Below the pieces are notes generated by a model that searched no databases, had not been told where the DNA came from, and saw only the letters and a program-made list of their open reading frames with translations. 64,000 nucleotides of DNA from Candidatus Zhuqueibacterota bacterium (GTDB lineage: Bacteria > Zhuqueibacterota > Zhuqueibacteria > Oceanimicrobiales > Oceanimicrobiaceae): positions 1 to 64,000 of the forward strand of contig JAJDAD010000012.1 in NCBI GenBank assembly GCA_029262055.1, written 5' to 3'. This document shows, in pieces, positions 30,251 through 36,463 of this stretch; position 1 is the stretch's first letter; each line of letters opens with the position of its first letter. Position numbers and translations under genes: made by a program.

Positions 30251-30767
30251 CCGGAATATCTATCTGGCAGGCTTCATGGGCGCCGGTAAAACGACTGTCG
30301 GGAAAAAACTGGCCAGGCTCACGGAACGTACGTTTACAGATACGGACGCTGAGATTGAAGCGCGAATAGGGAAAAGCACTGCCGACATTTTCCGGGATGA
30401 GGGCGAGGCGTCCTTTCGCCGGGTTGAGTCGGAGGTCGTGGCGCGGGTTTCCATGCTGTCGAATCTGGTAGTTGCCTTGGGCGGTGGCGCCATTTTGGCT
30501 AAGACAAACTGGGAGCGAATTTCTCAGACCGGGCACACTGTTTTTCTGGACTGGCCAGCCGACTGTCTGCTTGCGCGCATTTTGCACGGGGAAGGGCGGC
30601 CATTGGTCGAACAAGCACCCCTAACAGACCGTGCAGACCGCCTGCGACGATTATTGCAGGAAAGGCTGCCGTTTTACCAAAGATGTACCATTACAGTTAA
30701 GTGCGATGAAGCCATGACGCCGGAACAGATTAACCAACATATTCTGCAACAAATCGAAGAGCTATGA
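30219..30767 (+). CDS. aroK: Shikimate kinase
   Basis: A 182-residue nucleoside-monophosphate-kinase-fold enzyme. The P-loop is GFMGAGKTTVGKKLA, followed by the shikimate-binding FTDTDAEIEARIGKS (Asp), FRRVESEVV and VALGGGAI. The lid region holds ILHGEGRPLVEQ. The only in-frame ATG that keeps the first strand is 30219, deep inside the end of aroC and without a good ribosome site, so initiation is probably coupled to aroC translation. It overlaps the next gene by 4 nt. Confidence 0.93.
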   Translation: MQTGRKPPPDNRNIYLAGFMGAGKTTVGKKLARLTERTFTDTDAEIEARIGKSTADIFRDEGEASFRRVESEVVARVSMLSNLVVALGGGAILAKTNWERISQTGHTVFLDWPADCLLARILHGEGRPLVEQAPLTDRADRLRRLLQERLPFYQRCTITVKCDEAMTPEQINQHILQQIEEL

Positions 30768-31636
30768 TAGAAAAGATAATCGTTGTAAATGGTCCGAATC
30801 TCAATCTGTTGGGGGAGAGAGAACCCGAAATCTACGGCGCCCTGACTCTCGCCGAAATGGAAGCAAAGATACAGCAGTTTGCCGCGGATATGAACATCGA
30901 AACAAAGCTGTTTCAGTCTAATTCGGAAGGCGAAATCATCGATTTCATTCATGAACAGCGGAACTGGGCGAACGCATTGGTGATTAACCCGGCTGCCCTG
31001 ACTCATTACAGTTATGCGCTGCGCGACGCGGTCGCGGCTGTCAGCATGCCGACGGTTGAGGTCCACCTGTCAGACGTCGACAAGCGAGAGTCGTTCCGGA
31101 AGCACTCGGTTTTGACACAAGTCGTGGCCGGGCGTTTCAAAGGACTGGGTTTGCAGGGCTATCTTCGCGCCATCGAGTTTTTAGTAGGGCAGAGTGTCCA
31201 AGATGAATTGCGCGGCTGTATTGAGCGGAACGCTGGCAAAGACCAACTGCTGGTCGAGACTGCGAAACTGCTGAAGGCGCGTTTTCCCAAGTATGACTGG
31301 GTGGGGATTTACATGGTGGCGGGCACCGAGCTGGTGTTGCACAACTTTCTGGGGAAACCCACACCGCACGAGCGCATTGCCATCGGTGAGGGCATCTGCG
31401 GAGCTGCCGTTTCGGAGCGACACACAATTCTTGTTTCTGACGTAAAATCCGACCCGCGATATATTGCCTGCAGCATTGAAACCCGCTCTGAAATCGTTGT
31501 CCCCATCTTCTCAGAAGGCCAGATAATTGGCGAAATCGACATCGACAGCGACCAGCCGGATGCATTCCACAGCGGCGACCAGGAGTTCCTGGAGTCGTGC
31601 GCAGAGTTGCTGGGGCCACATCTTTCCGGTGCGTGA
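30764..31636 (+). CDS. aroQ: Type II 3-dehydroquinate dehydratase fused to a GAF domain (fRMsr-like)
   Basis: A 290-residue two-domain protein; the normal enzyme has about 145 residues. Residues 1-143 are a complete type II dehydroquinase with NGPNLNLLGEREPEIYG (Tyr24), QSNSEGEIIDFIHE, INPAALTHYSYALRDA (Asn75, His81), VEVHLSD (His101) and FRKHS (Arg112). Residues 144-290 form a GAF domain of free-methionine-(R)-sulfoxide reductase type: YDWVGIYMV, IGEGICGAAVSE (Cys212), YIACSIETRSEIVVPI (Cys236) and IIGEIDIDSD. Compared from memory with E. coli MsrC, the two later cysteines are kept and the first (IAC before the GxGVCG loop) is missing. No stop or frameshift separates the domains. This is the last gene of the supraoperon. 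Whether the GAF part is catalytic or regulatory is unknown. Confidence 0.88.
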   Translation: MIEKIIVVNGPNLNLLGEREPEIYGALTLAEMEAKIQQFAADMNIETKLFQSNSEGEIIDFIHEQRNWANALVINPAALTHYSYALRDAVAAVSMPTVEVHLSDVDKRESFRKHSVLTQVVAGRFKGLGLQGYLRAIEFLVGQSVQDELRGCIERNAGKDQLLVETAKLLKARFPKYDWVGIYMVAGTELVLHNFLGKPTPHERIAIGEGICGAAVSERHTILVSDVKSDPRYIACSIETRSEIVVPIFSEGQIIGEIDIDSDQPDAFHSGDQEFLESCAELLGPHLSGA

Positions 31637-34470: not shown

Positions 34471-34989
34471 ATGAAAGAATTGTTATATTTCTCTTCTTCC
34501 GATTTGATGATACAGGTTTTATACAAAGAAGATGTCAATTCAATCAATTATTTTTCACATCGAGAATTGTCTTTTGGAGAGAGAGTAGTAGTGGAACAAT
34601 ACTTGCTAACCAATATTGCAATCAAGACCGAGTATTACAAAAAACATCCTGCGCTCTTGCATTACAACGGTATCAACAGCAGATTGGTCAAGGACCTCAA
34701 CCAGTTCCATTTGAAGAATACCATGACCACGTTGAAGGAGAAGGAAAAGAAAGTCACAGATTCTGTTCAGAACCTGATCGACGAATCCTTGTCCTCCTAC
34801 TATTTTGAACAAATCGGTAGTACAATCCTGGAAATCAGGGATGCGGTTGCCGGAACCAATGGCAAGCACGACCTTTTTCAATTCGGCCACAAGCTGCGTG
34901 TCCTGGTCGATGCTTATAACTCCCATGCGGCCAGCAAGGTAGAGTTTCGGGATATTATTCCTCAGGAATTGAAGTCGTACTTTGTTTAG
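34471..34989 (+). CDS. Unrecognised 172-residue protein
   Basis: I do not recognise this gene. The predicted product starts MKELLYFSSSDLMIQVLYK, has no signal peptide or membrane segment, and is largely helical. A charged central region (LKEKEKKVTDSVQNLIDE) looks coiled-coil-prone. The C-terminal part has alternating hydrophobic positions (FQFGHKLRVLVDAYNSHA). ATG 34471 has GGGG 8 nt upstream; a TTG at 34396 would add 25 residues of less likely sequence. The gene stands 200 nt after lon and 58 nt before the outer-membrane fusion gene. Base use resembles its neighbours. It appears real because of the promoter-like element and ribosome site, but it is not assigned a role. Confidence 0.6.
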   Translation: MKELLYFSSSDLMIQVLYKEDVNSINYFSHRELSFGERVVVEQYLLTNIAIKTEYYKKHPALLHYNGINSRLVKDLNQFHLKNTMTTLKEKEKKVTDSVQNLIDESLSSYYFEQIGSTILEIRDAVAGTNGKHDLFQFGHKLRVLVDAYNSHAASKVEFRDIIPQELKSYFV

Positions 34990-35047
34990 CGGGGGAGGAA
35001 TACCAAATTAGTAAATATCTAATCATTTCTTTGTAAGGAGCTTTTCA

Positions 35048-36337
35048 ATGAGGAAGCAAATAGTGATCACGAGTGTAGCGGCCTTTATGCTTCTCACCCT
35101 GGGACTAGCCTCGGCACAAACATCAGGTAACAAAATCGGCATCGGAATGAACCTGGGAGTGAACCGACTCTACGGTGACCGAGGAAGTCAGGGTAGCGAG
35201 AACATTGGTTTTGGCACGGAAGCTGTTCTCTCCTATAGAATCCTGCCATTTCTGGAATTGGCCTATGCTCTTGGGTATGGCCAGGTGCGCTACGATGACC
35301 CGCTGAGGCTGCCACAAAAGACCACTGATTTCGTGAATAGTGACCTGAAGGGCAACTTTGAAGTTCTGCCCAATAGTCGTTTCAGCCCCTATGCTTCAGT
35401 AGGTTTGGGAGCGTTGTGGTATGCCGTGCGCAACCAGGGCTTCGGCCGGGTATGGGATGCAGAGTTCTTTGGTGGTGGCGGACTGCGCTACCGGGCAAGT
35501 TCGTCATTTGATATCTATCTCGGCGCAGACTACCGTTACATCACCAGCGACACGTTCGATAATCAGCGCAGCGAAGAAGGTTCAAGCGATGATGGCTACT
35601 TCAACGTGCGTTCGGGATTCACTTACCGCCTTGGCAGCGGACGTGACAACGAGGGCGTCATCGCCGGCCAAGAGGTTCCGTTTTACGAAATTGATGAAGA
35701 ACCGGGCATTGTAGATCCGGAATATGCCGGCATGCAAGCACAGACGTCTCGCCAAAACATCGCCGGCGGCCAGCAAAGCCCGAAAGATATGACTGAGTAT
35801 GTCAAGCTCAAATCCCGTATCGACGACCTGAGTCAAAAAGTCGACACGCGCGAAAAAGAGATTTCCGTCCTGCAGAGGGATTTAGGGCAACGCCGGCGGG
35901 TTCTGTCCTCCCTGGAAAACAAGGTCAGCGCTCAGGGTCCCGTTGCTGTTCGGACTTCTTCTTCCATGTCAGGGTTCTCAGAGATTTATGAAAAGGCATT
36001 GACCCACTTTTACAATCAGAACTACTCGCAGGCAATTTCCATGTTCGATCTGCTGTTGAGCCAGTATGCAAATCACAGCCTGGCGAGCAACTGTCAGTTC
36101 TGGATCGCGCAAAGCCATCTTGGGATGAGCCAGTACCCGCAGGCGATCGAGGAATTCACCAAAGTTCTGGCGTTTGAACGTTCTTTCAAGAAAGATGACG
36201 CTCTGTTCCATGTCGGGAAGACTTATCTGCAAATCGGGTCCGGCGACATGGCGCGCTCGGCCTTCACCCAACTTATTCAGCAATTCCCATACAGTGAGTT
36301 CCTGGACGAAGCAAAGGGCTACGTCGCCCGTTTGTAA
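35048..36337 (+). CDS. Outer membrane beta-barrel fused to coiled coil and YbgF-like TPR domain
   Basis: A 429-residue exported protein with signal peptide MRKQIVITSVAAFMLLTLGLA. Residues 25-200 resemble an OmpA-type eight-stranded barrel with alternating strands and aromatic girdles (IGIGMNLGVNRLYGD, LELAYALGYGQVRYDD, FDIYLGADYRYITSD). A linker (200-255) leads to a coiled coil (about 258-300; LKSRIDDLSQKVDTREKEIS). The C-terminal 115 residues are YbgF/CpoB-like TPRs: YEKALTHFYNQNYSQAISMF, CQFWIAQSHLGMSQYPQAIE and DALFHVGKTYLQIGSGDMA. YbgF normally is a soluble periplasmic partner of the Tol-Pal system, so the fusion would tether that function to the outer membrane. AAGGAG precedes the start and a strong terminator follows. 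Confidence 0.83.
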   Translation: MRKQIVITSVAAFMLLTLGLASAQTSGNKIGIGMNLGVNRLYGDRGSQGSENIGFGTEAVLSYRILPFLELAYALGYGQVRYDDPLRLPQKTTDFVNSDLKGNFEVLPNSRFSPYASVGLGALWYAVRNQGFGRVWDAEFFGGGGLRYRASSSFDIYLGADYRYITSDTFDNQRSEEGSSDDGYFNVRSGFTYRLGSGRDNEGVIAGQEVPFYEIDEEPGIVDPEYAGMQAQTSRQNIAGGQQSPKDMTEYVKLKSRIDDLSQKVDTREKEISVLQRDLGQRRRVLSSLENKVSAQGPVAVRTSSSMSGFSEIYEKALTHFYNQNYSQAISMFDLLLSQYANHSLASNCQFWIAQSHLGMSQYPQAIEEFTKVLAFERSFKKDDALFHVGKTYLQIGSGDMARSAFTQLIQQFPYSEFLDEAKGYVARL

Positions 36338-36432
36338 TGACGGGGTAGATTCCTCAGTGTTTTAGACCTTAGAAAAGCAAGGATGCTGCAGTGACAATTA
36401 ATCGCTTGATTTTATTCGGATTTTTTCACAAG

Positions 36433-36463
36433 ATTAGGTGGCGGCCATCGCCACCTAATTTTT
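36433..36463 (+). terminator. Rho-independent terminator
   Basis: A perfect 11-bp stem, ATTAGGTGGCG with CGCCACCTAAT, a 5-nt loop GCCAT and a T-run at 36459-36463. It ends the outer-membrane fusion transcript, 18 nt before the next gene. Confidence 0.88.

Follow-up and report, generated by a model that had tools for sequence, protein, structure and literature searches.

A predicted outer-membrane barrel carrying a CpoB-like coiled coil and TPR domain, distinct from CpoB and widespread in its phylum

Introduction

A question still to be answered is how the outer membrane and the wall are kept coordinated in diderm bacteria that lack Tol-Pal. It is raised by a gene in the stretch of DNA analyzed here (the window; 64,000 nucleotides), in which a single frame appears to encode an outer-membrane barrel followed by a coiled coil and by a TPR domain of the kind seen in CpoB (YbgF). 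Work on E. coli describes CpoB as a protein that joins PBP1B and Tol, binds TolA, and is a trimer when unbound (PMC4458516). According to a 2025 evolutionary study, CpoB began as an outer-membrane lipoprotein (PMC12204202). Is the gene in the window, then, a CpoB that has left the Tol-Pal system for a barrel, as its first-pass annotation proposed, or does it belong to a family of its own?

Results

A single frame encodes a barrel, a coiled coil and a TPR domain

The fusion gene (35048..36337) encodes 429 amino acids in one open frame on the forward strand, which is also the strand of the parts and flanking elements described with it. Seven bases before its ATG, the sequence reads AAGGAG (35035..35040), which resembles a ribosome-binding site and hence supports a start at 35048. 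Residues 1-24 (35048..35119) resemble a signal peptide, with a cleavage site placed by eye, and a loose motif scan found no lipobox-like motif in the protein. There follow an OmpA-like eight-stranded barrel (residues 29-195; 35132..35632), a linker (residues 196-244; 35633..35779), a coiled coil (residues 245-296; 35780..35935) and a YbgF/BamD-like TPR domain (residues 308-428; 35969..36331). A terminator-like hairpin of 15 pairs, 6 of them G-C, lies 3' of the gene (36430..36462). It is a consensus match from a pattern scan, which returned four such hairpins in the region versus 2.1 (sd 1.7) in shuffled sequence.

Several kinds of evidence bear on these domains. The Pfam family OMP_b-brl matches residues 9-178 with 29.7 bits, a narrow pass of the gathering score of 28.7. 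Pfam and NCBIfam both recognize the TPR domain, although the NCBIfam model tol_pal_ybgF scores 65.6 bits on residues 312-422, under its cut-off of 90.1. AlphaFold2 places eight long strands at residues 29-195, a single helix at 245-295 and seven TPR helices at 308-428. This model, built on a two-sequence alignment, is of moderate quality only (mean pLDDT 59.9, pTM 0.33); per ten-residue block, pLDDT is 81-94 in the TPR domain and 35-70 in the barrel, giving high confidence for the former only. Over residues 196-249 pLDDT is <50, and the linker is probably disordered. Foldseek relates the barrel to OmpA and NspA (1p4t, TM by target 0.71) and the TPR domain to YbgF (2xev, TM by target up to 0.87) and also to BamD. 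When the TPR domain was aligned with VIA-align, Z was 18.6 to YbgF 2xev (118 residues) and 18.7 to BamD 5waq (123 residues).

To these data we can add the periodicity and conservation of the chain. Hydrophobic periodicity of the coiled-coil helix is strongest at 3.5; in 17 of 5000 shuffled sequences the signal at this period is as strong, and in 19 of 500 once any period from 3.0 to 4.4 is allowed. Strand alternation in the barrel is weak: four of the eight strands are beaten by <5% of shuffles, and two are beaten by 41% and 57%. The final barrel strand, of the kind GxTYYLG, is conserved across the 27 rows of a fusion alignment (A1), in which the length of the linker varies. A1 holds 26 of 30 fusion proteins plus the fused paralogue L022; four proteins with short starts or near-copies (L039, L041, L044, L045) were left out. 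Pfam gave no match in the fusion protein to PF00691, the wall-binding domain of OmpA, at E ≤ 0.1, and this family is likewise absent from the 25 families listed, of 48, for the 27 A1 members.

Collectively, the domain matches and the AlphaFold2 model agree on a single chain with an OmpA-type barrel, a coiled coil and a YbgF-like TPR domain, just as the first-pass annotation had described. Its N-terminal barrel is borne out by the eight predicted strands and the matches to OmpA and NspA, at moderate confidence. The fused architecture, in one 429-residue frame, is well supported. The signal peptide, the barrel prediction and the final strand suggest that the protein sits in the outer membrane and, as barrel and TPR domain share one chain, the latter should be fixed there.

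The fusion is conserved across the phylum

We found a full-length fusion in at least 72 of the 82 phylum genomes examined. Full-length here means that the match covers model positions from ≤60 to ≥350, and one genome (G009) was added from a separate search; genome tallies were compiled by hand from profile-search listings. The fusion profile was matched at least partly in 82 of 82. Outside the full-length count are G028, G038, G044, G046, G049, G050, G065, G075, G077 and G081; in G044 the fusion gene is broken in two. Among 39 genomes that are ≥95% complete, at least 36 have the full-length form. One contig scan, with patterns from one sequence, returned one relative, from a Caldithrix MAG (47% identity), on which basis we take the phylum to be the Calditrichota; the Caldithrix copy in L019 is apparently the same gene as that in L025, with the same coordinates.

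At E ≤ 0.01, the 27 A1 members match OMP_b-brl in 26 cases and a TPR family in all 27. Every one of them also matches tol_pal_ybgF. A tree was built from 86 barrels, 41 of them from fusions; 39 of these 41 fall into one group with support 100/96, and the remaining two are tandem extra copies (L072, L082). Two short pieces of a broken gene (L086) were dropped from this tree, and L024-L052 were omitted as repeats. Given the full-length copies in at least 72 of 82 genomes and the single group of 39 barrels, the fusion is not an artefact of assembly or of start-site choice. The source genome has a second fused copy, on contig C20, with 26% identity.

The fusion is separate from CpoB and independent of Tol-Pal

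A free ybgF gene in an intact tol operon had been named beforehand as the finding that would refute the reading of the fusion as a CpoB freed from Pal, and such a gene is present on contig C52 (L020 7889-12561). There, tolQ, tolR, a TonB-C/TolA-like gene, tolB, pal and a lipobox-bearing CpoB follow one another in that order, on a different contig from the fusion. CpoB (110.4 bits with the YbgF model), Pal (130.2) and TolB (404.8) all score above cut-off; TolQ, TolR and TolA, which are below their own cut-offs, are named by place and best match.

We also built a tree of 84 TPR domains, which points in the same direction. The 14 CpoBs of tol operons form a group of their own (100/100, branch 1.59) with no fusion inside; the tree uses the last 125 residues of each protein, has few columns and this long branch, and is unsure in its deeper order. 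By pairwise comparison, the fusion is 29% identical to its own genome's CpoB over 119 residues, and 33% identical, over 183 residues that include the coiled coil, to the lipoprotein of a split pair described below. With a CpoB of its own in the genome, a TPR domain below the cut-off and a separate group of tol-operon CpoBs, we reject the idea of a displaced CpoB. The fusion is a distinct family.

We then compared the distribution of the two systems. TolB (E ≤ 1e-40) is found in 26 of the 82 phylum genomes and Pal_lipo (≥122 bits) in 25, every one of them within the 26. Of the 72 counted fusion genomes, 25 have TolB and 47 have no recognizable TolB, that is, no match at E ≤ 1e-40 among the best 18 first-look candidates scored per genome. 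When only fusion genomes ≥95% complete are considered, 23 of 36 are without both TolB and Pal. The fusion is thus independent of Tol-Pal, occurring beside it in some genomes and without it in most genomes of the phylum.

These results divide the functional part of the first-pass annotation. For a role in constriction we found no support. In the source cell, where Tol-Pal is present, the fusion is not a CpoB freed from Pal. A role in coordinating peptidoglycan is plausible for the family, because the fusion often occurs without Tol-Pal and because a related pair of genes stands beside elongation genes.

A related split pair lies beside elongation genes

On contig C19 of the source genome (L021 7245-9343), two adjacent genes resemble the two halves of the fusion. 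One product, a barrel protein, is 34% identical over fusion residues 15-248, and the other, a coiled-coil/TPR lipoprotein, is 34% identical over residues 254-428. The latter is the best same-genome relative of the fusion's coiled-coil/TPR half, and the former the best listed same-genome relative of its barrel half, the second fused copy on C20 aside. The pair comes after mreB, mreC, mreD, a PBP gene (mrdA) and a RodA/FtsW-type gene. As the mrdA and rodA products match Pfam families common to FtsI and FtsW, these two genes are named here by their place beside mreCD, and at other loci by BLAST.

A related barrel encoded by a separate gene occurs in 45 of 63 genomes of the class and, as we judge the matches listed, in none of the 19 from elsewhere in the phylum. 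The 45 were chosen by hand, as genomes with matches reaching the C-terminal part, and the matches listed outside the class cover the barrel only; among the 45, G018, G043 and G081 are represented by pieces and G003 by two frames. From these genomes we selected by hand 20 further loci (L089-L108) to set beside L021. Barrel and coiled-coil/TPR genes are neighbours in 20 of 20, with 667 bases between them at L108. At 17 of 20 loci (18 of 21 with L021), the barrel gene is preceded by a rodA relative, at a distance of 107-1006 bases in the 17; none was found at L102, L104 or L106. A loose lipobox motif is present in 20 of 21 split TPR proteins, 11 of 14 CpoBs and 4 of 40 fusions.

Two features of related genes are recorded here in their own right. 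All 21 split barrels (e.g. L021 8126-9343) have a hydrophobic, glycine-rich C-terminus, with a GRAVY of 1.08-1.74 for the best 19-mer, followed by a brief tail of mostly basic residues (RKQK, for example). The hydrophobic stretch looks as if it were a helix for a second membrane. Another coiled-coil/TPR lipoprotein-like gene, on contig C106 (L023 7377-8276), is 31% identical to the fusion and stands between RecN-like and DNA polymerase III-like genes, named by eye.

One simple way to obtain the fusion would be to join the split pair. This is not supported by the barrel tree, in which the 21 split barrels fall with 19 OmpA-type barrels, away from the fusions (100/98). With the split barrels on the OmpA side of the tree, the fused form need not derive from the split pair. 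What we retain is the broader point that barrels are associated with coiled-coil/TPR parts.

Related barrels carry either of two tails

The nearest neighbours of the fusion clade in the barrel tree are five proteins with OmpA tails (L136-L139, L142). Moreover, L072 (4868-9383) and L082 (4646-9528) each have three fusion copies near each other, and in both the barrel of the middle copy groups on the OmpA-type side, which indicates that barrel and tail have recombined. Taken together with the OmpA-tailed neighbours, this means that the tail on related barrels of the phylum is of one of two kinds, OmpA or coiled-coil/TPR. As wall binding by the OmpA tail is established for OmpA and Pal, a comparable job may be supposed for the coiled-coil/TPR tail.

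A gene of no known family precedes the fusion

Upstream of the fusion gene, 58 bases before it, lies a gene that we call c1 (34471..34989), recognized by profile search and by the comparison of neighbourhoods; its 172-residue product belongs to no known family. The c1 profile is matched in 52 of 63 class genomes and in 0 of 19 outside the class. In 52 of 52 c1-bearing genomes, one of which (G044) has the broken fusion gene, c1 immediately precedes the fusion in the same orientation, 4-521 bases away (model coordinates). Neighbourhoods were compared for 37 loci, of which L080 dropped out, and in 26 of the 36 the gene just upstream of the fusion is of the c1 family. Five fusion genomes, all members of family f10, are without c1. 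A second c1 is found elsewhere in some genomes (in the source genome at L109 7089-7634, on contig C26); the surroundings of six such loci share no neighbour other than response regulators, which are present at two.

Searches for relatives of c1 gave little. Its sole Pfam match at E ≤ 0.1 has 15.2 bits, against a cut-off of 26.4, and there was no NCBIfam match at E ≤ 0.01. Family matches across c1 members are scattered and weak, the commonest occurring in 7 of 25 members; these are the members of the c1 alignment (A4), which takes 25 of 26 c1 proteins and leaves out the partial L069. A search of the PDB with a two-sequence AlphaFold2 model (mean pLDDT 71.0) returned no match at E ≤ 0.001, the best being spectrin repeats at 0.4, and the c1 profile gave three tektin matches only among PDB sequences, at E 0.2 or worse. 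By eye, no signal peptide was seen in c1.

The other genes near the fusion are lon, a gene for a response-regulator/PAS/GAF protein and one for an NHL protein. The window neighbours annotated by Pfam (lon, dehydroquinase, regulators, a STAS protein and the NHL protein) include no wall genes. Neighbours other than c1 change between families, as judged by clustering of genes that are mostly unannotated. We also observed, at 30764-31636 of the window, a type II dehydroquinase and a GAF domain in one 290-residue frame, which is of similar length in four relatives and short (143 and 170 residues) in two.

Discussion

What might the fusion do? The sequences support its architecture and conservation, its separateness from CpoB, its link with c1 and a split counterpart near elongation genes. 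From these data and the models we infer membrane insertion, oligomerization, a partner and a role. Our preferred reading, which we think has about an even chance of being right, is that the protein would be an outer-membrane docking post, widespread in the phylum, that links the outer membrane to wall synthesis. In such a post, the OmpA-like barrel would anchor the protein in the outer membrane, and the flexible linker would let the coiled coil of ∼50 residues reach into the periplasm. The coiled coil would act as a stalk, probably joining several copies, and the YbgF/BamD-like TPR domain at its tip would bind a periplasmic partner. The most likely partner would be machinery for building or remodelling the wall, because CpoB of E. 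coli joins PBP1B and Tol and because the split pair adjoins rodA. The growth of the outer membrane and that of peptidoglycan would thereby be held together, with the post working alongside Tol-Pal where it is present and otherwise without it. Several points weigh against the docking post: the window neighbours annotated by Pfam are not wall genes, the link to the wall comes via a relative, the split pair, rather than via the fused protein, the split barrels group away from the fusion barrels, and the barrel model is low in confidence, with weak strand alternation. Nor does the docking post explain c1, which apparently is cytoplasmic: with no visible signal peptide it should stay in the cytoplasm, and direct contact between the two would not be expected.

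Three other explanations deserve to be weighed against the docking post. CpoB might have moved onto a barrel and be doing its constriction job there without Pal, a reading that would account for tol_pal_ybgF being the best NCBIfam match of the TPR domain and matching 27 of 27 A1 members, for the fit of its fold to YbgF 2xev and for the missing TolB in 47 of 72 counted fusion genomes. However, a true CpoB lies within the tol-pal operon of the same genome, the match is 65.6 bits against a cut-off of 90.1, and the 14 tol-operon CpoBs keep to one group (100/100) on a branch of 1.59. In addition, identity is higher with the split lipoprotein (33% over 183 residues) than with the CpoB of the same genome (29% over 119), and the fusion is present in 25 TolB-bearing genomes as well, so that we regard this explanation as very improbable. 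A better, if still unlikely, candidate is an accessory part of type IX secretion, in which a PorG-like barrel and a PorW/PorE-like TPR domain share one chain. Matches to PorG (26.1 bits) and PorW (29.3 bits) do occur, and at E ≤ 0.001 they recur in 22 and 24 of the 27 A1 members, respectively; of the 82 phylum genomes, 80 have SprA and none has PorG above its cut-off (NF052316). Both scores, however, are far under their cut-offs (130 and 250), the phylum's OmpA-type and split barrels outrank the fusions on the PorG list, and the one listed of the two SprA matches of the source genome is on another contig (C73). Co-occurrence of the fusion and SprA says little here, because both are nearly universal in the phylum.

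The remaining explanation, to which we would give a similarly low probability, is a structural protein of OmpA type with a BamD-like part, its coiled coil and TPR domain acting as a spacer or helping assembly in the outer membrane, without any particular tie to wall synthesis. The TPR domain does fit BamD and YbgF equally well (Z 18.7 and 18.6) and gives 35.9 bits with the BamD model TIGR03302, and barrels of the family also bear plain OmpA tails. Yet these bits fall well below the BamD cut-off of 81.4, and the fusion has no lipobox. Furthermore, 6 of the 11 invariant A1 columns fall in the TPR domain, which is more than a mere spacer would need.

If the fusion is a docking post, a broader picture of the phylum can be sketched, though tentatively, as we doubt it more than we believe it. 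The phylum may couple outer membrane and wall independently of Tol-Pal, with a fused post accompanied by c1 and a split post within the mreBCD-mrdA-rodA cluster, the barrel protein of which may span both membranes by way of its conserved hydrophobic C-terminus. It is in such a phylum, where a barrel-anchored CpoB-like post would be nearly universal, Tol-Pal is patchy and a sister version goes with the elongation machinery, that the question posed at the outset can be approached, and named genes are now at hand for deletion and tagging. A practical consequence concerns annotation: to call the fusion genes 'tol-pal system protein YbgF', after their best match, would be incorrect.

With respect to earlier work, both an outer-membrane lipoprotein form of CpoB and the PorE fusion have already been described (PMC12204202). 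The main text of that study has 0 occurrences of 'Calditrich' and of 'Caldithrix'. Among the matches listed from the open-licence literature, we found neither a barrel-borne CpoB-like TPR domain nor a rodA-linked pair, and no paper on Tol-Pal in the Calditrichota.

The known systems that come closest each share part of the fusion's design. OmpA, too, has a small barrel at its N-terminus and a periplasmic domain after it, which in its case is a wall-binding domain, where the fusion has a coiled coil and TPR domain. BamD (TIGR03302) resembles the fusion in its TPR fold and outer-membrane location. BamD has five TPR repeats; the fusion, in contrast, has three, is without a lipobox and scores below the cut-off of the BamD model. 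Both halves of the fusion have relatives in the split pair (34% each), which differs in consisting of two genes, with a lipobox on the TPR part and a longer barrel protein whose hydrophobic C-terminus is conserved. In type IX secretion, PorE is a lipoprotein formed by a fusion of cpoB, tolB and pal (PMC12204202). Like the protein described here, it has a CpoB-like TPR domain built into a larger outer-membrane protein; unlike it, PorE has a lipid anchor and TolB- and Pal-like domains, and the sections of that study drawn on here describe no barrel for it. Finally, CpoB/YbgF (TIGR02795, NF008068) is periplasmic, as the fusion's tail is predicted to be, and has the same order of parts, a coiled coil and then a TPR domain of the same fold. 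CpoB, however, is free or a lipoprotein and typically encoded with tol-pal, whereas the TPR domain of the fusion sits on a barrel, in a genome that also has a true CpoB.
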